This document shows, piece after piece, positions 1,455-25,476 of a stretch of DNA of 64,000 nt (position 1 is the stretch's first letter; each line of letters opens with the position of its first letter). Location: IMG/VR virus record IMGVR_UViG_3300021963_007290, positions 38,867 to 102,866 of that record. One strand, given 5' to 3'. Under the pieces are notes generated by a model. It ran no database searches. It was not told where the DNA came from and saw only the letters and a program-made list of their open reading frames with translations. The stretch comes from a virus. The translations under genes and the position numbers were made by a program.

Positions 1455-1488
1455 GAGGAAGGTTTAGATTGGTGGTTGTTCGTAATTA

Positions 1489-1496
1489 TATTTATA
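1489..1496 (-). promoter_or_regulatory. T4-type late promoter for gp48-gp53
   Basis: The minus strand reads TATAAATA, an exact match to the T4 late -10 element. It sits about 35 bases upstream of the gp48 ATG. The TAA stop codon of the preceding gp4 gene (1492-1494) lies inside the element, so promoter and coding end share bases. Confidence 0.75.
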
Positions 1497-1947
1497 GACC
1501 AAGTTCATCTTCCGTAATTATCATAAACTTGATCAATCTGTCTTCGCAAAATTGCTCTGCTGCTTTCCATTTAGCTTTATTTTTTTCATATGTCAACACC
1601 TCATTAATGTAGGTTTTATTTCTTTTTTTTACTGTTCTTTGTGGTTTAATTGTTTGCTTTTTTGGTTTTACTTCAACAATATACCTAACGGTCGTTCCAC
1701 TTGATTCTTTAATTTTCATATAAAAATCTGGAAAGTATCTACGAACTCTTTCTGTAGTTGGGTCAAAATATGGAATGAAAAATTCTTCACTTCCCCATTC
1801 AAGTATATCTTCTTTTCTATCACAGTATCTCATGAACTTTAATTCCCATGAAGATCTGTATATAATATTGTTTACATCACCCTTGTATTTTTCTGGGTTT
1901 CTTGGATGAAATTTTCCTTGATGATATTTTCCTTCATTACTTCGCAT
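1492..1947 (-). CDS. 4: Head completion protein gp4-like
   Basis: A 151-residue protein, close to the T4 gp4 (gp50/4) length of about 150. In T4 this protein acts on filled heads before tail attachment; loss gives heads that cannot join tails. The family signature is clear: a basic N-terminus with YHQGKFHPRNPEKYKGD, then NIIYRSSWELKFMRYCD, then ILEWGSEEFFIPY. The middle shows RRYFPDFYMKI, followed by YIVEVKPKKQ. The F-P-D-F and E-V-K elements match the active-site pattern of PD-(D/E)XK nuclease folds proposed for this family. It is transcribed away from gp54, with 31 bases between the two starts and a minus-strand late promoter in that gap. The stop codon overlaps the next late promoter. Confidence 0.92.
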   Translation of the reverse strand: MRSNEGKYHQGKFHPRNPEKYKGDVNNIIYRSSWELKFMRYCDRKEDILEWGSEEFFIPYFDPTTERVRRYFPDFYMKIKESSGTTVRYIVEVKPKKQTIKPQRTVKKRNKTYINEVLTYEKNKAKWKAAEQFCEDRLIKFMIITEDELGL

Positions 1948-1969
1948 ACATATTATATAAAGCTTTTTA

Positions 1970-1977
1970 TATTTATA
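1970..1977 (-). promoter_or_regulatory. T4-type late promoter for gp4
   Basis: TATAAATA on the minus strand, 23 bases upstream of the gp4 ATG at 1947 and inside the short divergent gap to gp54. It is the only exact late element in this gap; no equally good plus-strand element for gp54 is visible there. Confidence 0.7.
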
Positions 1978-1978
1978 A

Positions 1979-2800
1979 ATGGCACAAAATAAAAATCTTC
2001 AACCAATTAAATCTGCTTCAAAGGCATACCGATTAAGAGACATATTTCAAAAGCCCGCATTAACTTCTTTTTATCAGTGTTGGTTTTATCCCACTCAAAA
2101 ATCAAGAGATTGGATTTCTCAAAGAGGGTATGAATTTACGACTGCTGTTGAAAATATATCTTTACTTTGCTGTGAGGCATCATTGCCCGGATCTTCTTTA
2201 GTAACTAATGAAATTACAAGTGATTATACTGGAGTTACGGAGAAGCATCCATATAGAAGGCAGTTTATGGAAGCTGATTTTACTTTTTATGTTGATCATA
2301 ACGGAGCGGATGGTGGAAAGAGTCATGAAATAATTTGGTTCTTTGAGAATTGGATAGGTCACATCGCAAATGAATCCGTTACTGGATTAACCGATGGTAG
2401 ACCAGATAGTACAAAATCAAATTATTTTTACCGATTTGAATTTCCAAAAAACTACCAAACTGATATTTACATTAATAAGTTTGAAAGAGATTATCTGGGA
2501 ACATATTTGCAATACAACTTCTTACAGGCATATCCATTAACAATCCAAGCTATGCCTGTATCCTATGATTCTTCACAATTACTAAAATGTACGGTTACTT
2601 TTAGTTACACAAGATATAATGTTTATAGAGAATATAACTATGGAATAGTTGGTAAATTGAGAAACAATCGCGTAGTAACTGATCCATTTGCTTACTTTAA
2701 TCCATTTGCTACAACTGAAAGTGAAACTATATTTGATACTTTAAGAAAGGTGGGTGGTGGAGCTTTAGAAACTTTTGGATTAGACGATACAAATTATTGA
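1979..2800 (+). CDS. 54: Baseplate tail-tube initiator gp54-like
   Basis: A 273-residue protein placed directly beside gp4/gp48 and before gp26, the expected setting for cyanophage gp54. In T4, gp54 binds the hub and, with gp48, nucleates polymerisation of the gp19 tube. Visible features are an N-terminal basic stretch, the segment FQKPALTSFYQCWFYPT, a tube-protein-like middle (ADFTFYVDHNG, then IIWFFENWIGHI), and a beta-rich C-terminal half with LKCTVTFSYTRYNVYREY. The alternation of aromatic and polar residues in that strand is typical of tube-type beta-barrel proteins. T4 gp54 is somewhat longer (about 320). The family call depends partly on position; another tube-like structural protein is the main alternative. 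Confidence 0.7.
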   Translation: MAQNKNLQPIKSASKAYRLRDIFQKPALTSFYQCWFYPTQKSRDWISQRGYEFTTAVENISLLCCEASLPGSSLVTNEITSDYTGVTEKHPYRRQFMEADFTFYVDHNGADGGKSHEIIWFFENWIGHIANESVTGLTDGRPDSTKSNYFYRFEFPKNYQTDIYINKFERDYLGTYLQYNFLQAYPLTIQAMPVSYDSSQLLKCTVTFSYTRYNVYREYNYGIVGKLRNNRVVTDPFAYFNPFATTESETIFDTLRKVGGGALETFGLDDTNY

Positions 2801-2833
2801 TATATATACTATAACTGATTTGCATAAAAGATC

Positions 2834-3556
2834 ATGCCTTTACCTAAAATTAGTACCCCGACTTATGAACTAATTCTTCCTTCAACAGAAGAGACGGTTA
2901 CTTACAGACCATTCTTAGTCAAGGAAGAAAAATTACTTGTTCTTGCATTAGAAACGGAAGACACAAAACAAATTACTACAGCAATTAAAACAGTAATTAA
3001 AAATTGTATCGAGTCACCTAAAAATGTCAAGGTAGAAACTCTACCTACATTTGATATTGAATATCTATTTTTAAATATTCGTGGAAAATCTGTAGGAGAA
3101 GAATTGGAAGTTAATATCATCGCACCAGACGATCAGGTTACTGAAATTCCGGTTAAAATTGCCATTGATGATATTAAAGTAAATACCAACGAAAAGCACT
3201 CTCGTCAAATAAAAGTTGATGACAGTATTACAATGGAAATGAAATATCCTTCATTGGATGAATTTATTAAATCAAATTTTGATGTCAATCAAAGAACTAA
3301 TGTAGATCAATCATTTGATTTAATTGCTTCTTGTATTGATAGAATTTATACATCAGAAGAGGTTTGGGATTCTTCCGATGTAACGAAGAAAGAATTAGTT
3401 GAATTTCTTGAAGATATGAATTCAATTCAATTTAAACAAATTGAAACTTTCTTTGAAACTATGCCTAAACTTTCTCATAAATTAAAAATTAAAAATCCAA
3501 AGACAAAAGTAGAAAGTGAAATTGTATTAGAAGGACTTTCAAGTTTTTTCGCATAG
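2834..3556 (+). CDS. 26: Baseplate hub subunit gp26-like
   Basis: A 240-residue protein beginning MPLPKISTPTYELILPST. The N-terminal motif with TYRPFLVKEEKLLVLALE is characteristic of the T4 gp26 hub-protein family (T4_baseplate type). In T4, gp26 is needed for formation of the central hub. The rest shows alternating strands and helices, ending in KLSHKLKIKNP and a terminal LEGLSSFFA. It lies 33 bases after gp54 and two bases before gp51, the usual cyanophage order. The length fits the family (about 210-240). No promoter is seen in the gap before it; it is probably read through from gp54. Confidence 0.88.
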   Translation: MPLPKISTPTYELILPSTEETVTYRPFLVKEEKLLVLALETEDTKQITTAIKTVIKNCIESPKNVKVETLPTFDIEYLFLNIRGKSVGEELEVNIIAPDDQVTEIPVKIAIDDIKVNTNEKHSRQIKVDDSITMEMKYPSLDEFIKSNFDVNQRTNVDQSFDLIASCIDRIYTSEEVWDSSDVTKKELVEFLEDMNSIQFKQIETFFETMPKLSHKLKIKNPKTKVESEIVLEGLSSFFA

Positions 3557-3558
3557 CC

Positions 3559-3741
3559 ATGTCTCACATGGATCTGGAGAATTACTTCAGATTAAATTTT
3601 GCCTTGATGCAGTTCCATAAATATTCTTTGACAGAGATTGAAAATATGATGCCTTGGGAAAGGGACATTTATGTAATGTTACTTGAAGATCATCTGGAAC
3701 AGCAGGAATTAGAGGCAAAGACTGGAAGAGGTAATGGCTGA
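3559..3741 (+). CDS. 51: Baseplate hub assembly catalyst gp51-like
   Basis: A 60-residue acidic, helical protein beginning MSHMDLENYFRLNFALMQF. It carries the segment KYSLTEIENMMPWERDIYVML and an acidic tail. T4 gp51 is a non-structural factor required for hub assembly; cyanophages have a similar small gene directly after gp26. Here it starts two bases after gp26 stops and its last eight bases overlap the start of the next giant gene (ATGGCTGA), which points to translational coupling. The helix-plus-PWERDIY pattern also resembles tail-assembly chaperones that sit just before tape-measure genes, which would suit the next gene. The two readings are not exclusive. Confidence 0.7.
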   Translation: MSHMDLENYFRLNFALMQFHKYSLTEIENMMPWERDIYVMLLEDHLEQQELEAKTGRGNG

Positions 3742-6700
3742 TTCTAACCCAACAACACAATTAGTAGATAGTAGAATTGTTTCATTGTTGGGACTCCAAG
3801 ATGATTTGGAGTTGTCTCATGAAGATTATTTTAGATCTTTAAAAGAAGCTGCACTTGCTGCCAGAATGTCTGACGGCAAGTTTTCTTCTGAAGAAGTATC
3901 ATTAATAACAGAAGAGTTAAAAAGAGTAAGAAAAGAAGATAAGAATATAAAGTTTCAGACAGAAAAGAAAAGGGCAAAAGCAAAACCAAAAACTCAAAAA
4001 GTATCTAATAAAAATACCAAAAAAACACCAAAATCTACTACTCCCAGAGCAAATACAAAAGTTACTACATTATCAACTTTTGTTCAAAAGCAACAACAAT
4101 CTCCTGCTACTGAGGCACCATCTGCATCTCCACCACAAGCAACACCAACGGTTCCTCTTCTCCCCCAACCAAAGAAAAAAACTGTCGAGGTAAAGGAGAA
4201 AAAACAAAAGATTAAAAAAGAAGGTTGTTGTGAAATTCTTGGAAAAAAATTAACCAAGATTGATTCTACTTTAGGATCTATTTTTTCAACACTTAAAGAT
4301 CAGTTTTCTTTGAGAAAAAAAGATTCTGAAAGGGAACGAAGAGGTCGTGAAAAATCTGGAAGAGAAGACGCGGAAAATAAATTAGAGAAAGGAAGTGGAA
4401 TCAAAGAAATAGTAAGTACTGCTAAAAATTTACTATCTCCCTTTCAAGATCTTTTTGATAGAATAAAACGATTCATTGTATTTACTTTACTTGGTAAAGC
4501 ATTTACGATGTTTATGGATTGGATGAAAGATCCAAAAAATAGACAGACGTTTAATACTATTGTTAAATTTTTAACAGATCATTGGGTATTAATTGTTGGA
4601 TCTTATTTGTTATTTGGAACCAAGCTCGGTGGATTTGCAAGAACAATTGGCAAACTTGTAGTAAAATTAGCAGTAAAGGCAGTATTTGCTACAGGAAAAT
4701 TAATTGCAGTTTTAGCAAAGAGTAAATGGGGTCGAGTTGCTCTTGCTGCTGGAGCTGTAACTGCGGGGGCAGTTGCTATATCCCAAAGTGGAAAAAAGAA
4801 AGATGATAAGCAAGATGTAGAATCTTATGCCGATGGTGGTATTATCGGTGGTCTTGGAAAGGCACTCAAATTCACTCCTTTGGGAATGGCATTTGAGGCA
4901 GGTAAGCATGGTGCCAAAGCATTTGGAAAAGGTGCTAAGGCAGTAGGAAAAGTTGCTTCCGGAGCAACTGACTTCTTAGGAAAGGGATTAAAAAAATCTT
5001 TAGATGTAGCAACTTTACCTTTAACTATTGGATTTAAGGGTCTTGCTGGTGCCTCTGAATTTTTAATGAATGGTCTAAAATCATTAGATCTTTTTAAACT
5101 TCTTGCAGGTCCAATACAATCAATAACAAAAAAAGGTGGGGATAAGGATCCCAAACTCCAGGCAGCTGGTGGAATTCCTGGATTAATAGGAACGATTGTA
5201 CAAAAAACTTCTGAGGGAGTTGGCAAGAACGTTAAAGATTCTAAAAAATCAAAACAAGAAAAAAAGGATAAAGGTGCGGGATATGCTAAGGGTGGATTAA
5301 TTAATCCATTAACTATGGGACTAATGGGTGCTGTCCCAGGTCTTGGAGCATTCGCACCATTGTTATCACCATTACTACAAAGTAAAAAAATTGGTGGTGA
5401 TCATGGTCTCCCAGTTTCTGGAGCAGGAAAGGATGATAGGTTATTAAAATTAAGAACTGGTGATGCAATATTAACTGAAAAAGATCAAAAACAGTTATCA
5501 TCAGGAAACTTTTTAGAAAAATTTGGTGGTCCAATTGGTGCAATGGCATCTTTCTTTTCTGGAAAAAAATCTGGAGAAGAAACAGTTGTTGCTGCTAAAA
5601 GGGGAGAAGCAGTAGTAACTCAAGAGGATCAACTTAATATATTTGAAAAAACTGGAATCAGTATACCTTCTTTATTGTCTGGAAGAAAAGCAAATAAAGT
5701 TAGTTCTGATCAATTAAAAACAAAATCTGGAAAACGTCTTCCAGGATTCTTTAATGGAGGCATAGTTGAGGGATTTGCTGGTGGTGGAATTGTAGGTGGA
5801 GATGCTGCATATGCAAATCAAAGATATCAAGAGTTATTACAAACAACAAAGAAAAGTACAATATCTTCATATAATAAAAAGTATGGTGAAGGTGCATATG
5901 AAAAGAAATTATTAGCAAAATTAAACAAAATCCATACTGGTCCAGACAAGTCAACTAAACCAAAACTACCTCCAGTAAAAACTAATGATGCTTACATGAA
6001 GTCCGTAAGAGAACGGGCTGGAAAAGGATCATCAACACTTACAGTAAATGGACTTAGGATTTTTGGAGCTGGAAAAGTACTAGACAAAATAAAAGATGTT
6101 AAAACTCCTGATATAAAAATTGAAGATGTAGCAAATAAAGCTCAATCAAAAATAAAAAAACTTGCTGCTGCAACTAAGTTCGGTGAAATGAGTGCAGAGC
6201 AAAGGGCTGATTATGAACAAGCAATAGCAAAAGAGAAGGTAGAAAGAGATAAAATTTTAAGTAGATCAAAGCAAAAAAGATCTTCTGATGAGGGCGCAAG
6301 AAAAGCATTTAGGGATATATTTGATAACCCAGACCTAAAAAATTCACTTCATGAGAAAGTGGCATTTGGTGATATGACTTATGAGCAATTTAAAAAAGTT
6401 TATTATGGAAAACAGTCAAAAGCACCGGCAAAAGGAAATAAAGGTTATACTCCATTCAAATCAAAGTTTGCTGGAGCAAGAGATGCTGCACATGCTAAAG
6501 CAAAAAACATTACTGGAGAACCTAAGAAAGGATTTGGTTCAAAGTTAAGGAGTATTTTAAAATTCAATCCAATGATTCCTTTAATGGGATCTATTAAAAC
6601 TGGATTGGAATATAGTCCTTTAGGATTGTCTGCTAAAATTGCTAAAAGAGGACTTGATACTTTAGGTCCTCTTGGCGCATCTGTTGGTGGATGGATGCAA

Positions 6701-9613
6701 GGAAGGTTTAATCAAGTATCAAAAGATTTAAAAACTCCAAAACCAAAAGCAACTCCATTTACTGGTGTAAAATCTTCAGATTTTTATCAAGCAAATTCTC
6801 AAGCAAAGGAACAAAGTTTAGCAAATTTAACTTCACAAAAACGACTCGATATATTGAGCAAAGAAGGTGGTGGAGTTAAAACTGGAAGAGGAAAAAGATT
6901 TACTACAGAGAATATTGCCAAGGAAAGAGAATGGCAAGGTCGTGGTGGTATGCTTGGTGGAATTAAAAGAGGATTCCAATCTTTCTTTGGTGGTGCTGAT
7001 GCTCAAATTAGAAATTTAAAAGCAGATAAGGCATCAGCAGCAAGAGTAAGGCAAGCTGGTGCTGCTTCTATCGGTAGATACTACTCTTCTTCTGATGGTA
7101 AGTATTACAAGGATTATGATGCTGCACAAAAAGCAAGGCAAGCAAGATTAGCAGCACCACCAGTGCCGAAACCATCTTTTTCAAAACCAATTGGTACTGG
7201 TAGTAATGGTGGAATAACTAAACCAGTTGGGTTTAAACCAGCAGCTCCAAAACCAATTATAGCGAGACCAAAACCAATTGGTACTGGTAGTAATGGTGGA
7301 TTAAGTAAGCCAAAAGGGGGAATAAAGAAAAAAGAAGGTGGAGGATTAGTTGAAAGAAGCATTAGTGAGCAAATTAGATCTTTAAGGGGATTGAGAGCAG
7401 ATTCCTTAGAAAGGCAAGGTGAAACTAATAGTGCTTATGGATTGAGAGCATTTAATCTTCAGAAAGTATTTAAAAATTTTAATACTAATGATATTTTTAA
7501 AAAATCAAAATATTCATTTAATCTTAATGATTCATTTAAAAATTATTTTGATAAATCTAAAAATACCAATGAACAAAAGAAACCAAATCCATTTGGTCCC
7601 AATTTAGGATTAAATTTAAAACCGATAAAAACAAATTATCAATTAAGTAAGACATCAAAAAATAAAGATCTTACAAAAATTGCTTTTAATCCAAATACTA
7701 ATTTAAATAATCAGAAACCTAAAAGGCAATCAATATCAGACAGCCTGAAAGAACTTCGTGCAATGAGAGCAAGATCACTTGATAGGCAAGGTGATACATT
7801 GGGTGCATTAGGGGTAAGAGCATCTAATTATAATTTACCAAAAATTGATGCAAGTAAGTTAAAAGTAGATCCTAAAAAGGCTTATGGAAGTAATTTAAAT
7901 TTTGCAACTCCACCAGTAAAAGAATTGCCTAAATTTGACCTCTCAAAAGTATCGTCAAATGTTACTACATCATTTAAACCAACACCTTCTGCACCTTTGG
8001 CAGCACCTCCTCCCCCAAAAATAGATACTGCAACAAATTTGCCAGTTAAAACAACTACTGATGCTCCACCTCCCCCAAAAATAGATACTTCGGCAATACA
8101 AAAGAAAGCTGGTGGAGGAATAATTAATAAAGTTAAATCTGGGATAGGTGGATTTTTTAAATCAAAGGAACCTATCAAAAAAAGAGATGTTGTAAAAAAA
8201 GTTGCAGGAAAAGCAGTATCTAAAGGCGATGACATAAAAAGTAATCTTGAAAAAATTACTAATAAATCGAAAGAAAAAAAGAAAGGTTTTTGGGGAGGTA
8301 TATATGATACTGTCAGTTCAATTAACACTGGAGTAAACACTGCTAAAGCATTTGCTAAAAAAATAAATCCAATCAAAACAGCTAAAAATGCTGCTAATTT
8401 TATTGGTGGAAATATTAAAAACGTAGCAAATGTAGTTAGTAAAAAGGGTTCAAGTGTGCTATCTTCAGTGGCACAAAATCCAAAGATGCTTAAAGTTAGT
8501 GGAGCACTTGGTAAATTTGGTGGAAGAATGGTTCCTGGATTGGGTGTTGCGGCAAGTGCTGCTGATGCTGCTGCAAGGGCAGAAAGGGGAGATAAATGGG
8601 GTGCTGCTTTGGCGGGGTTGGGAGCTGGTGCCGGAGCTACAACCATAGCAACCTCTGGAGCAGCAGCAACGGGAGCTGGTGCTGTTATTCCAGCAGCTGC
8701 AGAGGCAGTGTCAATGGGTGCTGATGTTGCTTTACTGGGAAAGGATATATGGGATATAATGTCATCCAAAGAGAATACCGCATCTCCACAAAAAAATAAA
8801 GTAGAACTTAGTAAAATTCAGAGCAAAAGTTCCAAAGATTTGACAACATCTAAAGTTAACATGATGCAAGGTGGTGGAATCGTTAAACTTCAAGGTGGTG
8901 GAGAATTAAAATCGCCAGCAATTTCATCTGCTCCACTTCCTCCGACAATAGATCCTGCAACAAATTTACCAGTTGTAATGACTAATGATGCTCCATCTGT
9001 ACCACCCATTAAACCAATACAACCAAAACCGTCTACTCCATTAGCACCCATAAAAAAATCTGTAATGCAACAACAAGCAGATGAACTCCGTGCTATGAGA
9101 GCAAATTCAATGGAAAGGCAAGGAAGAACTTCCGAGGCTTATGGTCAAAGAGCATTTGGATCCAAAAAAGATTTTTCATCATTCTTTACACAAGGATCCG
9201 TAACAGAAAATACTGGTATGAATATGCCAGGAGGAACTGCAGATAGACAATTAACTGCATTACAACCTGGAGAATATGTAATTCCAAAACAAACAGTAAA
9301 TTCATTTGGTGGGGCAAGTTTCTTTGATAACATGGTTGCAAAAACGGATTCGGATTCAAATGCAGCTAAGTTAGGAGCAAAAAGTAAGCCAAACGTTGGG
9401 GGTGGCATTAAGCCATATCCAATAAATAATTCCAAGAAACCTCAAGTTACTAACTTAGGATCTGCTAAAGAAGCAAGATCTGGTGCTCAACTTTCTCAGG
9501 GAAGAACTCAAAATGGAGCATCTAAAGAAGTATTCTTTGAAGCACCTTGTCAGGAAGGATCTGCACCGTCCGAAAGACAGAGAATAATGGATCTCTTAGG
9601 GGTAAATAGCTGA
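3734..9613 (+). CDS. Giant tape-measure-like virion protein (1959 aa)
   Basis: Large Lys/Gly/Ala-rich protein of the tail module. Residues 1-160 are charged, with a P/K-rich linker. Residues 165-240 have a Cys-Cys pair followed by a coiled-coil-like, highly charged stretch. Residues from about 244 hold a hydrophobic block starting IKRFIVFTLLG and continuing with several membrane-like segments. The middle repeats G-GG-rich segments, and there are tape-measure-like motifs such as LKLRTGDAILTEKDQ and, near the C-terminus, LQPGEYVIPKQTVNSFGG. Three copies of an LRAMRAxSLxRQG repeat are present (from about 7358, 7735 and 9070). The CC and FTLLG elements recur in the next gene with nearly the same spacing. 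It probably sets tail length or fills the tube. T4 gp29 is only 590 residues and no clear alignment is visible by eye, so an unnamed structural protein is possible. Confidence 0.6.
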   Translation: MADSNPTTQLVDSRIVSLLGLQDDLELSHEDYFRSLKEAALAARMSDGKFSSEEVSLITEELKRVRKEDKNIKFQTEKKRAKAKPKTQKVSNKNTKKTPKSTTPRANTKVTTLSTFVQKQQQSPATEAPSASPPQATPTVPLLPQPKKKTVEVKEKKQKIKKEGCCEILGKKLTKIDSTLGSIFSTLKDQFSLRKKDSERERRGREKSGREDAENKLEKGSGIKEIVSTAKNLLSPFQDLFDRIKRFIVFTLLGKAFTMFMDWMKDPKNRQTFNTIVKFLTDHWVLIVGSYLLFGTKLGGFARTIGKLVVKLAVKAVFATGKLIAVLAKSKWGRVALAAGAVTAGAVAISQSGKKKDDKQDVESYADGGIIGGLGKALKFTPLGMAFEAGKHGAKAFGKGAKAVGKVASGATDFLGKGLKKSLDVATLPLTIGFKGLAGASEFLMNGLKSLDLFKLLAGPIQSITKKGGDKDPKLQAAGGIPGLIGTIVQKTSEGVGKNVKDSKKSKQEKKDKGAGYAKGGLINPLTMGLMGAVPGLGAFAPLLSPLLQSKKIGGDHGLPVSGAGKDDRLLKLRTGDAILTEKDQKQLSSGNFLEKFGGPIGAMASFFSGKKSGEETVVAAKRGEAVVTQEDQLNIFEKTGISIPSLLSGRKANKVSSDQLKTKSGKRLPGFFNGGIVEGFAGGGIVGGDAAYANQRYQELLQTTKKSTISSYNKKYGEGAYEKKLLAKLNKIHTGPDKSTKPKLPPVKTNDAYMKSVRERAGKGSSTLTVNGLRIFGAGKVLDKIKDVKTPDIKIEDVANKAQSKIKKLAAATKFGEMSAEQRADYEQAIAKEKVERDKILSRSKQKRSSDEGARKAFRDIFDNPDLKNSLHEKVAFGDMTYEQFKKVYYGKQSKAPAKGNKGYTPFKSKFAGARDAAHAKAKNITGEPKKGFGSKLRSILKFNPMIPLMGSIKTGLEYSPLGLSAKIAKRGLDTLGPLGASVGGWMQGRFNQVSKDLKTPKPKATPFTGVKSSDFYQANSQAKEQSLANLTSQKRLDILSKEGGGVKTGRGKRFTTENIAKEREWQGRGGMLGGIKRGFQSFFGGADAQIRNLKADKASAARVRQAGAASIGRYYSSSDGKYYKDYDAAQKARQARLAAPPVPKPSFSKPIGTGSNGGITKPVGFKPAAPKPIIARPKPIGTGSNGGLSKPKGGIKKKEGGGLVERSISEQIRSLRGLRADSLERQGETNSAYGLRAFNLQKVFKNFNTNDIFKKSKYSFNLNDSFKNYFDKSKNTNEQKKPNPFGPNLGLNLKPIKTNYQLSKTSKNKDLTKIAFNPNTNLNNQKPKRQSISDSLKELRAMRARSLDRQGDTLGALGVRASNYNLPKIDASKLKVDPKKAYGSNLNFATPPVKELPKFDLSKVSSNVTTSFKPTPSAPLAAPPPPKIDTATNLPVKTTTDAPPPPKIDTSAIQKKAGGGIINKVKSGIGGFFKSKEPIKKRDVVKKVAGKAVSKGDDIKSNLEKITNKSKEKKKGFWGGIYDTVSSINTGVNTAKAFAKKINPIKTAKNAANFIGGNIKNVANVVSKKGSSVLSSVAQNPKMLKVSGALGKFGGRMVPGLGVAASAADAAARAERGDKWGAALAGLGAGAGATTIATSGAAATGAGAVIPAAAEAVSMGADVALLGKDIWDIMSSKENTASPQKNKVELSKIQSKSSKDLTTSKVNMMQGGGIVKLQGGGELKSPAISSAPLPPTIDPATNLPVVMTNDAPSVPPIKPIQPKPSTPLAPIKKSVMQQQADELRAMRANSMERQGRTSEAYGQRAFGSKKDFSSFFTQGSVTENTGMNMPGGTADRQLTALQPGEYVIPKQTVNSFGGASFFDNMVAKTDSDSNAAKLGAKSKPNVGGGIKPYPINNSKKPQVTNLGSAKEARSGAQLSQGRTQNGASKEVFFEAPCQEGSAPSERQRIMDLLGVNS

Positions 9614-12600
9614 TGATAACGGCAATAGTAAGAGCAGGATCTGCAATTTCAAAAGGATCAAAATTACTACCAAGAAGTGCTGCTGCAAGTAAGCCCGTTT
9701 TAGCATCTAAATCCGTTAAGTTAGCACCATCATATCCTAAAGTAGATGCCCCTAAAAGGGGAAATGGATTGGTTAAAAGATTGCCAGATGCTTTAGATTT
9801 TGCTTCTTCTTTTGCATCTGCTTTTTCAGATCCTTCTGGAATTGATACTCCCAAGCAAAAGGTAAAAACAAAGAATTGCTGCGATACACTTGTCCCTTTA
9901 GTAGATTCCATATCAAAAAAATTAGTTGATATTGATAAGTTATTAAAGGATGAACTTAAATTTGATAGAAAGAATAGTGACTATCAAAGAAAGAAGAAAG
10001 AGAAGGGTCAATATAAAAAACAAGAAGAAAAATTAGAAACTCCCAAAAAAATAAAGCCAAAAGCAAAACTTTCTCCAGGCGTTCCTGGAATTTCTCTTGG
10101 AGAAAGGATCAAAAGGTTTGTTATGTTCACCCTTTTAGGGTGGTTGGTAGATAAAATATTACCTCTTCTTCCAAAATTAGTTCCAGTTTTTAATGCTGTC
10201 GGAAAAGTAATAAACTTTGGTGTTGAATTATTTGGTGGTTTAGTTAGTGGTCTGTCTAAATTTTTAGAATTTGGAATTAAATTAACCAATGGATTGACCA
10301 AATCTTTGGGATTCATTGCTGGAGCAAGAACAGAACAAGAGTTTTCTGACTTTGAAAAGAAATTTAATAGAATGGTTGATCTTGCAATCTTAGCAGCAAT
10401 GCTGATTGGAGATAGTGGTAGTGATCTTTTTGATGGGTTTGGTAAAGGTAAAGGTAAAGGGGGAAAACCATCGGCATCAAGACCAAAGCCTGGAACTGGT
10501 GGAAGATCTAAAGTAACTACAACTGGTGGAAAAAGTGCCGGTAGATTTGGTAGAATAAAAGAAAGATTTACCGATCCATTCAGACAAAAATCAAAAGTCA
10601 CTACAAGTGGTGGAAGACAAACTGGACTTGGTGGAAGAATAAAGGATCTTCAAGATAAGATAACTCGACCTACTGCGAAAGTCACTACAAGTGGTGGAAA
10701 AAACACGGGCATTTTAGGTCAAATAGGAGAACTTGGAAATAAACTTAAGAAAACAGTTTCTCCAACTAAGATAACTGGAGCATCAACAAAACCTGGATTA
10801 TTAAAAGGTGCTACAGAAGGGACACAAAAACTACTTGCATCTGCTAATAAAAGCAAACTTGTAAAAGGTGCGTCAAGTGTATTTTCAAAAATAAAAGTTC
10901 CTCCTGCTGTCGGTAGAGCTGCTGGTCCAGTAGGAACTGTTTTATTTGCTGGTGTTGAATTTGCTGGAAGAAAAGCATCCGGACAAACAACATCTCAAGC
11001 AGCAGTGGGAACTGGAGCATCAGTTGCTGGTGGTCTTGCTGGTGCTGCAGGTGGTGCTAAAGCTGGTGCTCTTGTCGGTGCTGCAATTGGTGCTCCATTT
11101 GCTGGTGTTGGTGCTGCCCCTGGTGCTGTAATTGGTGGAATTATTGGTGGAATTCTTGGTGGACTTGGTGGATCTTGGGCGGCATCAAAGGTTGCTGATA
11201 CCGCAACAGGTGCTAACAAAGCACAACCAAAACCAGTTGCAAAGCATAATGAGGGTGGTATTGTAAAAAATACACTTGATTTAAAAGGTTCTCTTCCAAG
11301 TTGGTTTGAATCTGCAAACAAAAAGAAAGCATCTACAAAATCATCAATTAAAATTAATCTTCCCAAAAAGAAGAAAGCACAATCTGAAAAACCAGGAAAA
11401 GATATTGGTGGATATGGAGAAATAACAAAATTATTCCCAGATCCAGAAGGGAAAGTTTCTGGAACAGGATCTTCTCAAGGAGGGTCAGCAATAACTTCTG
11501 CCGCACAGAAAAAGGCAGGATTTAATGTATTCAATCCCTTTTCATGGTTTTCTAAAGCTACTTCTGGACCAGCAGCACCAGCACAACCATCTCAAAGATC
11601 ATCTCAACCAAATGCATTATTTGCATTAACAAAGGCATCACAATCACTTAAGAAAATACCTTTTGTTGGTCATTTAATGGGTGCTTCTGTTGATATTGCT
11701 ATGGGACAAAAGCCAGATCGTGATCTTTATCAGACAATGGCAGATTCTGTATTATATCTTGGACAGAAAGCAGCAGAAGGACAAAGTAAAGATATACAAA
11801 CAAATATTCAAAAATTGGCTACTGGTGGAATAGCTTCTATCGCAGAGTCATCTTCATCAATAACTTTAGATTCTGAAAAGGTAGCAACTAAAACCTTAAG
11901 AGATAGTTTAGCTGGTGCTATTGAAATAGGTGCTAATAGTGCTCTCAAGAATGTGAAAGATGAAATTATTTCTGCTAATGTTAGAGGAAATACTTCTCTG
12001 ATCCCAAATAGTACTGAACCTAATAATAATTCTAATAGCACTTTCAATGAAAATTCTAATTTTGGATATGATGACTCTGAGGATTCATCCGGTGATGGTT
12101 CTGATGGAAACTATGATGATACTCCACATGGACAACCAGGAGGTGCGGTAAAAACATCATCTGGATTTAATGCTGGTAAGGGAGATAAGAGTAGAAAAAT
12201 ATTTTTACATTGGACTGCTGGACCACACAATACACCTTTTAGTAATTACCATACAACATTTTTGGGTAACGGTAGTGCTGTTAGATATACTCCTTATGAC
12301 AAAGATAAAGGAACTCATACTGGAGGAGCAAATACAAATTCAGTAGGTCTTTCTATTGCTGCAATGGGTGGAGAAGGGACAGGTCCAAATAATTTTGGAA
12401 AATATCCCCCAACATCTGCTCAAGTAAGTGCTATGGCACTTGAGGCAGCAAGATTAGCAGCTGCTTGGGGATGGGATGAATCCACGATTGATTCAAATAT
12501 AAAAACTCATGGAGAATGGGAAAGATTTGGAACTAGTACTGGAATTCTTTCTGGGAAACCACAAAGGTGGGATTTAGATAAACTTCAACAATCTGATCCG

Positions 12601-15600
12601 GCAAATAGTGGAGGAAATAAACTCCGCAAAATGATAAAGGGATATTTTAAAAAATTAAAGCAAGGAACCACTACCGACTCATCTACTGGAACTACTAAAG
12701 TAACTTCAAGTGGTGCTACTTTACGTGAGATGTCTTTATCATCTGCTATGGAATTGACTGGAGGGACTCCAAGAACCGCAGGAGGTAAACCAGGATCTGG
12801 TGGAAATATAAGTGAATCTAATAAAAAATTACTTAGCTTTATTTCTAAAGGTGAAGGTGGATATAACTCTATGAATAGAGGGGGTGCTGGAGATAGTCCG
12901 GGGGAAGCAAAAAAATATCTTGGAAGAAATTTAACTGAAATGACAGTTGCCGAAGTAATGGCGCACCAGGCAGCTGGTAAACTTCATGCTGCAGGAAGAT
13001 ATCAAATTATTGCAACTACCATGAAATTGGCAGTTTCAAGATCTGGGGTAGACAAGCAATCTAAATTTGATCCAGCAACACAAGATAGATTGGGATTGGC
13101 GTTGATTTATAATGGACAAAGACCAAAATTATCTGCATATCTTAATGGTCGGAGTAATGATATTAATGCTGCTATGTTGGATTTTGCTAAGGAGTGGGCA
13201 TCAGTTCCCGATCCTAGAACTGGCAAATCTTTTTATGGTGGAACCAATGCTTCTCATCATAGTGTAGAATCTGTTAAGCAAGCTTTAATATCGGCCAAAA
13301 AGGGAGGAGGGTCAAGGGGGCAAGATACTGCATCTGGATCAAACACTCCATCCGGACCAGTTCAAAAAGGTCAAATCGTCCAATGGTTGCATGGAAATCC
13401 AAATCGTAAGGGATACGATTATGCTGGGCATGGTACTGCAGACAATGCACATGATCACTTTAGCTTTAAGACAAGATCGGCAGCAGTAGCAGGATTCAAA
13501 GCATTGCAAAAATCTGGATTTAAACCTTATGAGTTTGAGGGATTTGGTAAAGTTGGGAAGCATTCACCAACTGGAGGTCATTTTGGTCCTGTTGGACAAA
13601 GACCAACTTATGATGATACTACTGATGGAACTGCTTTTGATATTCCTTGGGCAACTTATGGAAGTGGTCCAATTGGACCGAAAGATTATGCCAAATCAGA
13701 TCAAGCGGGTAAGATAGTAGGGGCAGCATTTCATGGATCAGAAGTTAAAAAAGGTGGATTATGGAATCTCCATGATAATGAATTTGTTATAGATAAAGAT
13801 ACTGTTGATTTATTTGGAGCAGATTTTTTCAGAGCAGTAAACGCAGTAGAAAATAAAGTGCAACTGCAAAAAGTATATCCAACATTAATTAGTAGAATAG
13901 AAGAATCCGCCAAAGGAAAGGCATATGTCAGACCAGAAGTTTCATATAATGAAAATACATCATCTGACATGTCTTTGGGATCTGCTTCTCAATCCAAACA
14001 AACAACGAGAGATCTTGAAACTTTCAATAAAGAAAAAGAAACTAACACTGAAGAATCTCAACAGAAAGATGATGAAAAGGAAGATAAAAAGAAACAAAAA
14101 GTACAAGTAACGTCAGCAAGTCACCCCCAAACTGGAAGTGGATTTGCAATTAAAGGAGTTACTGATGGTAATGGAAGACCTTTAATTCTTTCTAAGGGTG
14201 GAATAAAGGCATTTGGTGAAATGATGCAGGACTCAAAAGGTGCTGTAAAGGGATCTGATGTTGCAAGTGGGAAGAGAAGTCCTGCTCATAATAAAAAGGT
14301 GGGTGGAGTTCCGAATTCAAATCACTTGGGTGGAAATGCTTTAGATATTCATGGAACATCAGAACCATGGATGAGAAGGAAAGGTAAAGCATATGGATGG
14401 GTTGTCAATGATTATCCAGGGTCTCATGGTGGACACTTTGATTACAAAGGAGAAAATGCCGATGATTCTGGTGATACATTTGCTGCAAGATCTGCTGACG
14501 TTGTGGATGACTCTGTAACTGATTCTCCCCCCTCCGGTGGTGGTCCTTCTGGTGGTGGTCCTTCTGGTGGTGGTCCTTCTGGTGGTGGACGTTCCCTCGG
14601 AGGTTCTTCCCCTGAAGATGGATTTGTGGATGTTGATTCGGAACCATCAGAATCTTTAGTCCCTGGAGCACCAAGACCAAAAGGTGGCAAGTTTAGTCCT
14701 GCTGCACCAATGGCTAAGGGGGCAGTGGGAGTTGATGATAAATTATTTAAAGAACTTGGGGCAAGTTCTGAAGATTGGGATATATTTAGAAATACTGTAG
14801 CACATATTGAATCTAAAGGTGCTTATGATATTGCTGGAGGAAGTGGTGGGCATTATGATGGAAGATATCAAATGGGAGAAGATGCTAAAACGGATGCCGC
14901 AAAAGTACTTGGTATCCCAAATCCTGGGCATAGTGCGGCAGATAGGGCAGCATATAGAAGTAAACCAGAACTGCAAGAAAAAATGTTTGCGGCATATACA
15001 ATAGCAAATCATAGATATTTGATGAGAAATAAAGATTATAAAAATGCATCAGTTGAAAGAAAATTGCAAATTCTTGGATATGCACATAATCAAGGAATGG
15101 GTGGAGCAGAAAAATGGTTAAGAACTGGCGAAGTTGGTGCTGATGGGTTTGGAACAAAAGGCACAAAATATACTGATGCACTTGCTGCAAACTTTAAAGC
15201 AAGAGATAAAGCAATTAAAGATGGAACATACGGCAAAGATGATAAAGATAAACCAAGTGGTAAAGATGATCCAGGTTCTACGGGATCAATTGCTGCTGGA
15301 GATTATAGTATTGACACTAAAAATGAATTTTTAAAATCTGCTGGCACTGGAAAACTTAAGCATGGTCGTGCGGGTGATGGACTGTGTACATCAAATGTTT
15401 TATACGGATTGGATAAACTCGGGCATACTTTTGCACCACAAGGAACTGCAGGAGATTCTTCAAATCCGAGAGGATTAGTATCGCAATTAGTTGGAGGCAG
15501 TGGATTTACTTCAATTCCTGGATTGGGATCTGAGCAAACTATAGAGAGTCCTTATGGAAATGTAAAGGCAAGAGTCGTTCCTTTTAAAGATTATCAAGCA

Positions 15601-16254
15601 GCTGTAGAAAAGGGACTTATTCCAAGTGGTGCATTTCTTTTTTCAACCAGATATAAAAGTTGGAATCAACAAACTGGAGGATCTTCAGGATTTGATACAG
15701 CAATTGCCAGAGAAGGAGGAAGAATTGCTTGGAATGGAACTGGATCTCAAGGAAATGCAATTTATGGAGATGCCACTCAATCTGTTATTGTATTGGTTCC
15801 AAAAACAGCAATTAAAGAAAACAAAAAACCAGGAGAAGCAGCAAAACCGGGACAAGCAGCAAAACCGGGACAAGCAGCAAAACCGGGAGGAAAACCAGGA
15901 GCACCAGCAAAACCGGGACAAGCAGCAAAACCGGGAGGAAAACCAAAACAGAATTGGCTGCAATCTGCTGCAAGTAATGTTGCTGGTTTATTGACTGGAA
16001 AGAAAAAATTGGGGGTTATAAAGGCAGAAGGTGGTGGTCAAATAGATTCATCCGGAATTATTGCAAGACCAAAAAGTCCAGACATTGGGAAGTTTGCTTC
16101 TTATGAAGATCCATCTGGACCAGCACCACACATAATTATAGTTCCTTCACCAGCAAAACAATCATCACCCGAAAAACCAAAAGGATCACCTTCGTATTCT
16201 GGAGGTCCCAAGAAATCACCACAACAAGGATATAGTTCACGTAGGAGGTCTTAA
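9613..16254 (+). CDS. Giant tail protein with stacked cell-wall-hydrolase-like domains (2213 aa)
   Basis: The ATG overlaps the previous TGA. Residues 89-90 are Cys-Cys, then a charged coiled-coil-like stretch, then IKRFVMFTLLG (166-176), paralogous to the previous protein. About residues 460-525 form a Gly/Ala-zipper membrane-like segment. Domains then follow. (1) About 858-990: zinc amidase-like, with FLHWTAG (H866), H966 and D987. (2) About 1073-1180: lysozyme/transglycosylase-like, with GEGGYNS (E1081) and AAGRYQI. (3) About 1250-1355: unassigned, with HDHFSFKTR. (4) A tape-measure-like motif, LHDNEFVIDKDTV. (5) About 1530-1615: M15 peptidase-like, with H1571, D1578 and H1608. (6) About 1725-1845: transglycosylase-like, with E1733, GRYQMG and HNQGMGG. 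(7) About 1905-2035: cysteine-peptidase-like, with C1925. Low-complexity PSGGG and AAKPGQ linkers separate some domains. It likely helps the tail cross the cyanobacterial wall. Domain names are by motif only. Confidence 0.7.
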   Translation: MITAIVRAGSAISKGSKLLPRSAAASKPVLASKSVKLAPSYPKVDAPKRGNGLVKRLPDALDFASSFASAFSDPSGIDTPKQKVKTKNCCDTLVPLVDSISKKLVDIDKLLKDELKFDRKNSDYQRKKKEKGQYKKQEEKLETPKKIKPKAKLSPGVPGISLGERIKRFVMFTLLGWLVDKILPLLPKLVPVFNAVGKVINFGVELFGGLVSGLSKFLEFGIKLTNGLTKSLGFIAGARTEQEFSDFEKKFNRMVDLAILAAMLIGDSGSDLFDGFGKGKGKGGKPSASRPKPGTGGRSKVTTTGGKSAGRFGRIKERFTDPFRQKSKVTTSGGRQTGLGGRIKDLQDKITRPTAKVTTSGGKNTGILGQIGELGNKLKKTVSPTKITGASTKPGLLKGATEGTQKLLASANKSKLVKGASSVFSKIKVPPAVGRAAGPVGTVLFAGVEFAGRKASGQTTSQAAVGTGASVAGGLAGAAGGAKAGALVGAAIGAPFAGVGAAPGAVIGGIIGGILGGLGGSWAASKVADTATGANKAQPKPVAKHNEGGIVKNTLDLKGSLPSWFESANKKKASTKSSIKINLPKKKKAQSEKPGKDIGGYGEITKLFPDPEGKVSGTGSSQGGSAITSAAQKKAGFNVFNPFSWFSKATSGPAAPAQPSQRSSQPNALFALTKASQSLKKIPFVGHLMGASVDIAMGQKPDRDLYQTMADSVLYLGQKAAEGQSKDIQTNIQKLATGGIASIAESSSSITLDSEKVATKTLRDSLAGAIEIGANSALKNVKDEIISANVRGNTSLIPNSTEPNNNSNSTFNENSNFGYDDSEDSSGDGSDGNYDDTPHGQPGGAVKTSSGFNAGKGDKSRKIFLHWTAGPHNTPFSNYHTTFLGNGSAVRYTPYDKDKGTHTGGANTNSVGLSIAAMGGEGTGPNNFGKYPPTSAQVSAMALEAARLAAAWGWDESTIDSNIKTHGEWERFGTSTGILSGKPQRWDLDKLQQSDPANSGGNKLRKMIKGYFKKLKQGTTTDSSTGTTKVTSSGATLREMSLSSAMELTGGTPRTAGGKPGSGGNISESNKKLLSFISKGEGGYNSMNRGGAGDSPGEAKKYLGRNLTEMTVAEVMAHQAAGKLHAAGRYQIIATTMKLAVSRSGVDKQSKFDPATQDRLGLALIYNGQRPKLSAYLNGRSNDINAAMLDFAKEWASVPDPRTGKSFYGGTNASHHSVESVKQALISAKKGGGSRGQDTASGSNTPSGPVQKGQIVQWLHGNPNRKGYDYAGHGTADNAHDHFSFKTRSAAVAGFKALQKSGFKPYEFEGFGKVGKHSPTGGHFGPVGQRPTYDDTTDGTAFDIPWATYGSGPIGPKDYAKSDQAGKIVGAAFHGSEVKKGGLWNLHDNEFVIDKDTVDLFGADFFRAVNAVENKVQLQKVYPTLISRIEESAKGKAYVRPEVSYNENTSSDMSLGSASQSKQTTRDLETFNKEKETNTEESQQKDDEKEDKKKQKVQVTSASHPQTGSGFAIKGVTDGNGRPLILSKGGIKAFGEMMQDSKGAVKGSDVASGKRSPAHNKKVGGVPNSNHLGGNALDIHGTSEPWMRRKGKAYGWVVNDYPGSHGGHFDYKGENADDSGDTFAARSADVVDDSVTDSPPSGGGPSGGGPSGGGPSGGGRSLGGSSPEDGFVDVDSEPSESLVPGAPRPKGGKFSPAAPMAKGAVGVDDKLFKELGASSEDWDIFRNTVAHIESKGAYDIAGGSGGHYDGRYQMGEDAKTDAAKVLGIPNPGHSAADRAAYRSKPELQEKMFAAYTIANHRYLMRNKDYKNASVERKLQILGYAHNQGMGGAEKWLRTGEVGADGFGTKGTKYTDALAANFKARDKAIKDGTYGKDDKDKPSGKDDPGSTGSIAAGDYSIDTKNEFLKSAGTGKLKHGRAGDGLCTSNVLYGLDKLGHTFAPQGTAGDSSNPRGLVSQLVGGSGFTSIPGLGSEQTIESPYGNVKARVVPFKDYQAAVEKGLIPSGAFLFSTRYKSWNQQTGGSSGFDTAIAREGGRIAWNGTGSQGNAIYGDATQSVIVLVPKTAIKENKKPGEAAKPGQAAKPGQAAKPGGKPGAPAKPGQAAKPGGKPKQNWLQSAASNVAGLLTGKKKLGVIKAEGGGQIDSSGIIARPKSPDIGKFASYEDPSGPAPHIIIVPSPAKQSSPEKPKGSPSYSGGPKKSPQQGYSSRRRS

Positions 16255-16255: not shown

Positions 16256-17611
16256 ATGCCTAATAATATTGCAGCTCAAGGTGGAGAATCTATTATAAGA
16301 AAGTTTGAAATTACTTCAAACTATAGTGAAGAACCAACTGACATTAGTAGTGGAATTACAAATTTATCAATTTTTGAAAGTATTTTTGATAGTACTATAA
16401 GAGTAAGTGCTACTTATAGTGATACGGGATATGGAAATAAAAAAGCAAACAGTGAAGAAACATTTAATAATAGTGCTGGAGAAAAAACAGAATTAGTAAT
16501 AGAAGATGCCTTTGGAAAAAAATTGGATTTTACTGGGGATTATCAACTTAGAACTGCCAAGAATGTTAGAGAGGCATATGGTGGAGCAGATACCACAAAA
16601 ACAACCATTAGGACTTTGTTTTATTCGCAAGAATCAATTACAAATAATTATGTAGAAAAAGATGGACACTATTATAGAGTCAGTAAAAAGTACGAACGAA
16701 AAATATCCGATAACGTTTCTACAATATTAAAAGATGTTTTAAAAACACCCAAGGAAGTAGATGTTGATCCATCAAAAAATGATTACAACTTTTTCGGATG
16801 GAACGAAAAAGTATTTCATAAAATTTATTGGTTAGCAAAAAGAACCGTTCCAGAGGGAGTGGGGGGGCAAGGAATTTTAGCTGGATATTTATTTTATGAA
16901 ACTGCAAAGGGAAGTGAAGGTACTCCAGGAGGATATCATTTCAAATCTATAGATCTTTTATTTTCACAAAGTCCAGTGAGAAAGATGATCTTGACAAATA
17001 CTAATGAAATTCCAGCAGGATATTCAAATAAAATATTAAATCATGTTGAACATACAAGTGTGGATTTAGATTCTCATCTCTTAACTGGGGACTTATTTAA
17101 AAGGAAAATGGAAACATTTAATCCTTTTGATAATAAATTTGATAATAGTGATGATTTTGATTTTCAATCTCAAAATTTAGTGACTAATAATGGAGGAAAG
17201 GAATTTTGGAAAATTGCTTCTGATATGAAAGCACAAGATGTTGTAACAAGTTATAACTCAAAGATGTTTGATACTGGAACTACACCAACTGGATCAACTT
17301 GGGAAGAACAAAAAAAAGAATCGAAGGAAATTAACTTTGATATGACGGAAATCATTCGTCAATCTACCAATAGAATAAATCAAATGTTAACTATTCAAAT
17401 GACTGTGGTAATAGCACTTGATCTTGGAATTCATGCTGGTGATATGATCTTTTTAGATTTTCCAGAAATATCAAATTCTGATACTCAAGAGGTAAGTAAG
17501 AACAAAAGTGGTATATATATGGTAATGGATATACATCATAGAATAACTGCTGAAGCAAATTTCACTTCTATTCAGGTTTGCAGAGATACTATTTACAGAA
17601 AGGGAGGTTAA
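16256..17611 (+). CDS. Baseplate hub protein, gp27-like
   Basis: A 451-residue protein preceded by a strong AGGAGG ribosome-binding site that lies inside the last codons of the previous gene. It begins with QGGESIIRKFEITSN and continues through beta-rich segments such as SGITNLSIFESIFDSTIRVS. The middle carries GYLFYETAKGSEG, then GGYHFKSIDLLFSQ, a pattern seen in hub proteins of the gp27/late-control-D type that form the ring above gp5. The C-terminus has a barrel-like segment (LGIHAGDMIFLDFPEI, then GIYMVMDIHHRI) like the second barrel of such hubs. T4 gp27 is 391 residues. The position just before gp5, with one small gene between, supports a hub role. The precise T4 name is inferred, so no symbol is given. 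Confidence 0.68.
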   Translation: MPNNIAAQGGESIIRKFEITSNYSEEPTDISSGITNLSIFESIFDSTIRVSATYSDTGYGNKKANSEETFNNSAGEKTELVIEDAFGKKLDFTGDYQLRTAKNVREAYGGADTTKTTIRTLFYSQESITNNYVEKDGHYYRVSKKYERKISDNVSTILKDVLKTPKEVDVDPSKNDYNFFGWNEKVFHKIYWLAKRTVPEGVGGQGILAGYLFYETAKGSEGTPGGYHFKSIDLLFSQSPVRKMILTNTNEIPAGYSNKILNHVEHTSVDLDSHLLTGDLFKRKMETFNPFDNKFDNSDDFDFQSQNLVTNNGGKEFWKIASDMKAQDVVTSYNSKMFDTGTTPTGSTWEEQKKESKEINFDMTEIIRQSTNRINQMLTIQMTVVIALDLGIHAGDMIFLDFPEISNSDTQEVSKNKSGIYMVMDIHHRITAEANFTSIQVCRDTIYRKGG

Positions 17612-22200: not shown

Positions 22201-23022
22201 ATGGGACACGCAGTAGACGACTTATCAGCATCTCATCAGGTAACTTGTGGGGCTGGGTATCCATTCACATCCCTTCTTCTTGGACCTGCAAAAATTAGAG
22301 GATCAAGTTATATTGAAGGTCCATCAGTATTTGGTAATCCTAATATATGGCCAAATGTTTGGGCAACTGTAATGATTGGACCAAATACCAATTTAGATTC
22401 GCCACCAACATTTGCTCCAGGCGCCATGTGCTGGGGTGGTCCAGCAATTAACAATCCATATTCTTTAGCAACTATTGGAAACTCTGGTTTCTTTGGTAGT
22501 GTTGATGTTGCTGGAAATATGTGTACACAATTTAACGTTATTGCACAGGGAGAAGTTGTTTCCAGATGTGGTGCTCACATTCTTTCGTTAAAAAAGAATT
22601 TTGACATTACACATCCAACTAAAAGGGGTTGGAGATTGAGACATACTTGCCCAGAAGGACCAAGCAATGATGTTTATATTAGAGGGCAAGTTAGAAGTAA
22701 AGATTACATTGACCTCCCAGAATATTGGAAAGGTTTAGTTGATCATACAACCATTACAGTTAATCTTACTCCTATTGGTGCCCATCAAGATGTAATTGTA
22801 AAAAGAATTGGTGAAGATAAAGTTTATCTTCAATCGAAAGGAGGTATGCCAATTCATTGTTTTTATCATATTTACGGCGAAAGAAAAGATGGGGAAAGAT
22901 TAATTCCAGAATATCAAGGAGAAACTCCTGCAGATTATCCTGGAAATAATGAAGAGTACTCTATTGTTGGATGGAGTTACGATAAGAGAGAAAAAGATTT
23001 CACCAATTTAAGGAGAGCATAG
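22201..23022 (+). CDS. Virion structural protein, tandem paralogue 1
   Basis: A 273-residue protein. The N-terminal half is Gly/Pro/Asn-rich (PAKIRGSSYIEGPSVFGNPN) and resembles spike or tip proteins. The C-terminal half holds a domain with KKNFDITHPTKRGWRLRHTC, then EGPSNDVYIRGQ, IDLPEYWKGLVDHTTITVNL and TPIGAHQD. The same domain makes up most of the next gene. A related pattern (NFxIxHPxx...LxHxxxExPE...Y.G...LPxYF..L) is widespread at the ends of phage fibre proteins and in bacterial surface proteins; its function is not known to me. Strand and spacing place it in the gp5/spike operon, so a baseplate tip or short-fibre role is likely. Confidence 0.6.
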   Translation: MGHAVDDLSASHQVTCGAGYPFTSLLLGPAKIRGSSYIEGPSVFGNPNIWPNVWATVMIGPNTNLDSPPTFAPGAMCWGGPAINNPYSLATIGNSGFFGSVDVAGNMCTQFNVIAQGEVVSRCGAHILSLKKNFDITHPTKRGWRLRHTCPEGPSNDVYIRGQVRSKDYIDLPEYWKGLVDHTTITVNLTPIGAHQDVIVKRIGEDKVYLQSKGGMPIHCFYHIYGERKDGERLIPEYQGETPADYPGNNEEYSIVGWSYDKREKDFTNLRRA

Positions 23023-23024: not shown

Positions 23025-23651
23025 ATGTCATTTTCTTCAATGAGTCCAAGAACAGATGCAAAGGCTAATTGTAGACCTAAGCAACCATGGACTATTCCAT
23101 TTGGAAGTTGGGCAAAACCCCTCCTCCCTTATACTGGAGACGATAATTTAAAGTTTAATCCTTTTACGGGTTGTCCTTTATATTGGCACAATTATATGTA
23201 CGTTACAGACCTTAAATGGTCTGGTGGTATTTTGTCTGCAAAAGGACGTTTTTGGGATTCTAAAAAATCTTTTGATATTCCTCATCCAACAAAAGATGAG
23301 CATCGTTTAAGATACATTACCCTTGAAGGTCCAGATGCTGAGGTTTATTATCGAGGAACTTTAAAAGATAATTCCTACATTGAGCTTCCAGATTATTGGA
23401 AAGGTTTGGTAGATGAAGAAACTATTGGTGTGACTTTAACTCCAATTGGTGTCTATCAAGAATTATTTGTAGAAAGAATTGAATGGGGATCGAGAGTCAA
23501 GATTAAAAATAATGCTGGTGGTCCAATCCATTGCCATTATGTTGCCTATGGTATTAGAAAAGATACTCCTAAAAATATTCCAGAGTATCCAGGCTTGACA
23601 CCAGATGACTATCCAGGAGATAATAAAGAATATAATATTAATAGTATTTGA
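23025..23651 (+). CDS. Virion structural protein, tandem paralogue 2
   Basis: A 208-residue protein that starts two bases after its paralogue. From about residue 78 it shows KKSFDIPHPTKDEHRLRYIT, then EGPDAEVYYRGTL, IELPDYWKGLVDEETIGVTL and TPIGVYQELFVERI, matching the domain of the preceding gene almost block for block, including the closing GGPIHCHYVAYGIRKD and PEYPGLTPDDYPGDN. The N-terminal part differs (CRPKQPWTIPFGSWAKPLLP). The pair arose by duplication with exchange of the N-terminus, or diverged strongly there. The TGA stop overlaps the ATG of the oxygenase gene (TGATG), suggesting coupled translation. Confidence 0.6.
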   Translation: MSFSSMSPRTDAKANCRPKQPWTIPFGSWAKPLLPYTGDDNLKFNPFTGCPLYWHNYMYVTDLKWSGGILSAKGRFWDSKKSFDIPHPTKDEHRLRYITLEGPDAEVYYRGTLKDNSYIELPDYWKGLVDEETIGVTLTPIGVYQELFVERIEWGSRVKIKNNAGGPIHCHYVAYGIRKDTPKNIPEYPGLTPDDYPGDNKEYNINSI

Positions 23652-25046: not shown

Positions 25047-25053
25047 GAGGGGC

Positions 25054-25082: not shown

Positions 25083-25113
25083 ATGTAGGTACTCAACTGA
25101 CGGACCCCCCTCA

Positions 25114-25469: not shown

Positions 25470-25476
25470 ATTTACA

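Follow-up and report, generated by a model that had tools for sequence, protein, structure and literature searches.

In phage T4, gp5 is a tail lysozyme that the tail tip brings to the cell wall, and tail enzymes usually need to open only a small hole. Which protein would do this work where the gp5 spike has no lysozyme domain? The question is raised by a viral stretch of 64,000 nucleotides (positions 38,867 to 102,866 of IMG/VR record IMGVR_UViG_3300021963_007290; hereinafter the window), which we regard as cyanophage DNA because two genes that belong to Photo_RC, the photosystem reaction-centre family, are found in the 102,866-base record behind it. As judged from gene order and from its gp26, gp27 and gp5 matches, the phage is a T4-like member of the Kyanoviridae. 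Between its gp26-like and gp27-like genes lie two long paralogous genes, here called X1 and X2 (Table 1), a location shared by all nine isolate regions compared. A preliminary description of the window, made from the letters alone, had proposed at least four wall-cutting-like domains in X2, and Pfam, PHROG and PDB profile matches together with conserved residues now bear this out. On sequence and modelling evidence we consider it likely that X2 belongs to the virion, in the baseplate hub or the tail tube, and that its C-terminal chain of wall-cutting modules opens the murein at entry.

Six modules in the C-terminal half of X2

X2 contains six compact modules, all past residue 858; the span of 12170-15810 given earlier keeps its end at 15810, and its start is corrected to 12184 (residues 858-2066). 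Four of the six belong to, or in the case of slot 5 resemble, recognised enzyme families. In slot 1, Pfam places Amidase_2 (PF01510) at residues 859-967 with 27.7 bits (cut-off 26), the zinc ligands H866, H966 and D987 are kept in six of six aligned rows, and the best match of this part of an AlphaFold model is the amidase 8c4d (Z 9.5, root-mean-square deviation [rmsd] 3.7 over 138 residues). For slot 2 (TG1), a family profile recovered lambda lysozyme from the PDB (1am7, E-value 2.3e-4), a kinship that was not found when the whole X2 single sequence served as the PDB query. Its catalytic glutamate E1081, preceding a GRYQ motif, is kept in 63/63 rows, and in the first AlphaFold model (X2 850-1441), where TG1 mostly has a confidence score (pLDDT) of about 90, it matches the lysozyme domain of the cyanophage A-1(L) hub protein (8kea; Z 12.3, rmsd 4.5, 159 residues) and lambda lysozyme (3d3d; Z 10.7, rmsd 4.0, 136 residues). 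Slot 4 is a Peptidase_M15_3 domain (PF08291, residues 1550-1583, 28.1 bits against a cut-off of 23.2) with a profile match to 1lbu (E-value 3e-4), H1571 and D1578 in 17 of 17 rows and H1608 in 16. Slot 5 (TG2) drew no SLT (GH23) match from Pfam at E≤1; a second model (X2 1690-2074) puts it closest to MltE (6ghy; Z 10.1, rmsd 3.6, 144 residues), with lytic transglycosylases or a phage lysin filling the top 24 rows, and E1733 is kept in 15/15 rows. X2 also matches phrog_5867 'endolysin' (E-value 1.5e-90), most strongly over TG2, and TG2-like domains occur weakly (E-values 5e-4 to 4e-3) in 'tail lysozyme' records of Tenacibaculum phage PTm1 and Agrobacterium phage Atu_ph04.

The profile search and structure prediction that the preliminary description had proposed thus turned out largely in its favour for these modules: Amidase_2 and M15 were recovered by Pfam, the amidase and TG1 models match enzyme folds, as the TG2 model may (both models being weak in Foldseek), and the catalytic residues it had named in all four lie where it had put them. 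Its view that amide, glycan and peptide cutters stand together in one chain likewise agrees with the domain families, from which the activities are predicted. Degenerate hydrolases often act as binders, and several of the modules might bind the wall rather than cut it, the stack serving as a murein anchor or ratchet with one or two active enzymes. This we think unlikely: at most one row deviates at any catalytic position of amidase, TG1, M15 and TG2, and it is the cysteine module of slot 6, lacking the expected histidine, that speaks for binding.

In slot 6, C1925 is kept in 14 of 14 rows directly before a helix. Papain-like wall enzymes, we assume, have their histidine at the strand position that corresponds to D2028, and an aspartate stands there, at the strand start, in all 14 rows; the activity of the Cys domain is doubtful because of this replacement. 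A reading as an active cysteine peptidase, of the NlpC/P60 or CHAP kind, is therefore not supported for want of a Cys-His pair, and Pfam gave only three unrelated weak families across 15/15 members. A profile of the domain found nothing of use in the PDB, the fold matches of the second model covered TG2 alone, and in a viral library other cyanophage proteins were matched, none with a function. As an enzyme it is the weakest of the six.

Slot 3, left unassigned before except for its HDHFS motif, is probably a zinc peptidase of the LAS type, to go by its motifs and a permutation test. Its residues H1280, H1282, H1317, H1323 and D1343 are kept in five of five rows. Searches with this HDH domain found it in viral contigs (two loci in a first scan, five in a second), with none among phages and none in genome contigs. 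In a relative, locus L027, the corresponding slot is filled by a domain containing the motifs HSGRGHYEGRAIDV and HPTHLHVE; the profile of its family shows a weak likeness (E-value 0.36) to the zinc motif of hedgehog N-domains, which we take to have the LAS fold. HDH carries both of these motifs (H...G.A.D and the H.H zinc set) in swapped order, and rotating it at residue 45, just before SAAVAG, raised its mean score to the L027 slot-3 family from 35.2 to 44.0. The rotated score beat 300 of 300 shuffles (mean 32.7, standard deviation 2.7; 60/60 in an earlier run), with fewer cuts scored per shuffle than for HDH itself, and M23 too outscored its 80 shuffles, at a different cut. As hhalign returned no significant match for the native, doubled or 27 rotated forms, we regard circular permutation as suggestive; AlphaFold confidence over this stretch is too low for a claim about its fold. 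A separate observation concerns locus L051, where HDH domains 72-73% identical to that of the window lie on both X1 and X2 (1473-4673 and 4689-8570), which suggests movement between the paralogues.

Exchange of modules between close relatives

The closest relatives found for X2 are L003/L004 (one protein with one difference) and L027/L072; the window's X2 can be aligned over its whole length with the L004 protein, and with the L027 protein over two long blocks. Identity to L004/L027 is 91/29% for the amidase, 23/16% for TG1, 19/20% for HDH, 93/88% for M15, 22/75% for TG2 and 24/23% for the Cys domain, and stretches outside the modules mostly reach 33-69% and 24-61%, respectively. Within a single open reading frame (ORF), then, per-module identity switches abruptly between 75-93% and about 20%. 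L004 and L027 in turn are 92% identical in slot 6 and 23% in slot 5. Read at the sequence level, the slots of X2 are of independent ancestry.

The replacing domains are Hydrolase_2, M23 and Phage_lysozyme (GH24) in L004, and a TG1-like domain (29% by BLAST) and the LAS-motif peptidase in L027. From these domain families it follows that, as far as families tell, slots 2 and 5 hold predicted glycan cutters and slots 3 and 4 predicted peptidases in the window, L004 and L027 alike; exchange would appear to keep the class of bond that is cut. For slot 6 of L004/L027 we rejected an M23-like identity, as the likeness was by eye only, with no Pfam match and no phage match. Modules also move across the pair, S-WAM1 having the Cys domain on X1 with amidase and TG2 on X2, and S-RIM50 having M15 on X1.

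A bolder reading, which we offer tentatively and think rather unlikely as a whole, is that X2 is a six-slot cassette selected in each slot for bond class and not for family, that the non-homologous swaps fit the murein of changing cyanobacterial hosts, and that slot 3 is a naturally circularly permuted LAS peptidase. Six singly exchanged modules would amount to a natural library of enzyme combinations for opening the cyanobacterial wall, and their exchange would let one ask whether the host range of marine phages follows murein chemistry.

The X1/X2 pair across Kyanoviridae and its probable place in the virion

We surveyed 70 loci, picked for carrying one of the modules and hence not a random sample, which gave 59 distinct gp26-gp27 intervals and 54 counted two-gene pairs, the window being entered by hand with both genes. 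Five loci (L019, L021, L029, L108 and L174) were set aside because they had more or fewer than two long ORFs, and L027/L072 stayed outside the count for want of gp26 in the locus; the number of long ORFs in the interval varies, with one in S-BM3 and three in S-MbCM6. Recognised domains per pair number one in 27, two in 16, three in eight, four in one, six in the window and seven in L023, so that one to three in 51/54 pairs contrast with the last two. All domains recognised in the window are on X2; its X1 gave no wall-cutting domain in Pfam (no match at E≤1) or in a separate module scan. Among nine partner proteins scanned with Pfam was one VanY peptidase, left outside the pair count.

As side observations, GH19 (chitinase-like) domains lie on X1 of the cluster C phages S-CREM2 (L176 3484-8181) and S-B68 (L016 7894-10413), with weaker matches in X1 of L004 and L027 and none in the window. 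S-CREM2 combines this GH19 with a Phage_lysozyme on X2, and its X1 has the N-terminal module (E-value 3.5e-9) that is common to both families. This module, whose profile came from two rounds of building on these same loci, is present in 53/53 X1 and 51 of 53 X2.

The virion evidence comes from such positional counterparts. Mass spectrometry of S-CREM2, whose tail measures about 418 nm, assigned 73 unique peptides to ORF208 and 71 to ORF209 among the virion proteins, both under the name 'endolysin' (PMC10665884, Table 3); in the available part of that paper its authors suggest packaging within the capsid, and from gene position we would place both in the tail hub. The S-SCSM1 virion proteome includes a glucosaminidase and a DD-carboxypeptidase (available part of PMC9602691). 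The pairs of S-CREM2, S-WAM1 and S-RIM50 resemble that of the window in location, N-terminal module and domain families. Given the abundance of the S-CREM2 counterparts in the virion, it is very improbable that X1 and X2 are endolysins that act in release when infection ends, although many records bear that name and phrog_5867 is filed under 'lysis'; a length of 2213 residues, a conserved N-terminal module, a place in the hub cluster and two paralogues in a row argue against it as well.

We envisage that the N-terminal half of X2, with the module it has in common with X1, would hold the protein in the tail, and that the C-terminal half would present wall-cutting modules strung on low-complexity linkers. 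Tail contraction might release or expose this chain in the periplasm, where TG1 and TG2 would cut glycan strands, the amidase the amide bond of the stem peptide, and M15 and probably HDH peptide bonds, opening the murein mesh locally and letting the tube pass. The location of X2 within the tail, its timing and the activity of each module are to be read as predictions of this scheme.

Alternatively, X1 and X2 may be tape measure proteins with C-terminal enzyme modules that are carried along and meet the wall as the tape leaves the tube. No tape measure gene was recognised among the window ORFs scanned, within the hub cluster X1 and X2 stand out by size, a hydrophobic segment is present in each, and S-CREM2 with its 418 nm tail has a long X1 and X2 (1565 and 1456 residues). 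There is also a precedent in the tape measure of mycobacteriophage TM4, likewise a long tail protein with a wall-cutting part inside, though this is one hydrolase motif in another type of phage (available part of PMC1796659). On the other side, much of the extra length in the window consists of enzymes, the N-terminal module profile found nothing convincing in the PDB, tape measures included, and weak tape-measure PHROG matches fall on gp5 and not on X2. We hold the tape measure role to be a real possibility but lean away from it; it is compatible with X2 acting as a wall-opening virion protein and does not exclude it.

The pairing of domains speaks for the entry role: where both genes have a recognised domain (21 pairs), all but one join a glycan cutter to a peptide or amide cutter (20 pairs, as against a mean of 15.8 on shuffling; P=0.008). 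The test ignores relatedness (15/16 after collapsing to 16 architectures, P=0.02) and classed amidase and the doubtful Cys domain as peptide/amide cutters. These limits weigh against an entry role for the X2 chain, as do several further points. By recognised domains, S-CREM2, the proteomics case, is the sole non-mixing pair of the 21, the virion evidence concerns positional counterparts in print, and the activity of the X2 modules is predicted. At 20.9, Hydrolase_2 in L004 falls short of the Pfam cut-off of 27, and we assume that it is specific for glycan. HDH has no family match in Pfam at this stretch or in a profile search of the PDB (M15, M23 and LAS all unmatched), and slot 6 has D2028 in place of histidine. 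TG2 is helical, and a Z of about 10 can arise without kinship among helical models; for both models Foldseek gave no PDB match at E≤0.001, the values being 0.026 or worse (0.046 for TG2).

One of the nearest known systems is hub protein gp15 of Anabaena phage A-1(L), a cyanophage baseplate protein with several wall enzymes to whose lysozyme domain TG1 is closest in fold. Besides the lysozyme it has an endoglucanase and a peptidase domain, both shown to act on cells, but these are three enzymes on a hub barrel as against six modules on a separate paralogous pair, and no slot exchange is described in the available part of the report (PMC10966104). In the open-access literature searched, we found no phage tail protein described as having six wall-cutting domains. 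By their sequences the modules are enzymes of known kinds, and it is their number per chain and their mosaicism that are unusual; the slot pattern is the new point, and the features of note are the module count, the separate origins of the slots and the joining of glycan with peptide cutters across X1 and X2.

The gp5 spike and other features of the window

Unlike in T4, the enzyme is not on gp5 in the window. The preliminary description was right that Pfam finds no lysozyme domain there; its further idea, that the activity had moved from the spike to X2, does not single out this phage, since the domain is absent from all ten Kyanoviridae gp5 proteins scanned from isolates (0/10) and X1/X2 are enzyme-bearing throughout. 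Because these ten and the window agree, we take the shift away from gp5 to be family-wide; the entry enzymes of abundant T4-like cyanophages are likely on X1/X2 and not on gp5 (records often named 'tail lysozyme').

Table 1. Features of the X1/X2 locus, numbered from the first nucleotide of the window
Feature	Position	Strand	Basis
gp26-like baseplate hub gene, upstream border of X1/X2	2834..3556	+	PF12322 T4_baseplate, E-value 2.2e-71; phrog_150 baseplate hub
X1, 1959 residues, paralogue of X2 at the N-terminal module	3734..9613	+	N-terminal module, E-value 3.8e-38
X2, 2213 residues, predicted multi-enzyme tail protein	9613..16254	+	ORF call, Pfam, PHROG
N-terminal module common to X1 and X2 families, hydrophobic segment at residues about 169-187	9847..10476	+	profile matches; alignment
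Slot 1, predicted N-acetylmuramoyl-L-alanine amidase (Amidase_2), residues 858-1012	12184..12648	+	PF01510; Zn ligands 6/6; fold Z 9.5 to 8c4d
Slot 2, TG1, predicted lambda-lysozyme-type glycosidase, residues 1061-1228	12793..13296	+	1am7; 8kea and 3d3d fold; E1081 63/63
Slot 3, HDH domain, proposed (permuted) LAS metallopeptidase, residues 1248-1371	13354..13725	+	conserved H/D set; permutation test
Conserved linker (FHGS...NLHDNEFVIDKD...), residues 1373-1435	13729..13917	+	55-61% identity to L004 and L027, adjoining exchanged slot 3
Slot 4, predicted M15 peptidase, residues 1502-1615	14116..14457	+	PF08291; 1lbu; alignment
Slot 5, TG2, lytic-transglycosylase-like, residues 1702-1866	14716..15210	+	fold Z 10.1 to MltE 6ghy; E1733 15/15
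Slot 6, Cys domain, papain-like topology at most, residues 1899-2066	15307..15810	+	alignment; secondary structure; expected catalytic His replaced
gp27-like tail/hub gene, downstream border of X1/X2	16256..17611	+	phrog_350, E-value 2.4e-54
gp5 spike, 1219 residues	17827..21486	+	Pfam and PHROG matches; lysozyme domain not found

The gp5 of the window, at 1219 residues, is longer than those of the ten isolates (694-910), and towards its C-terminus it matches profiles of virion structural proteins. Elsewhere, an ORF of 2852 residues in the tail fibre region (33131-41689) has no PHROG match at E≤1e-5. The Photo_RC genes adjoin each other at 24704-26900 of the window's record, and the same tandem is present in the record of L004. 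Two adjacent ORFs, at 22201-23022 and at 23025-23651, look like a duplication, since each matches phrog_17490.

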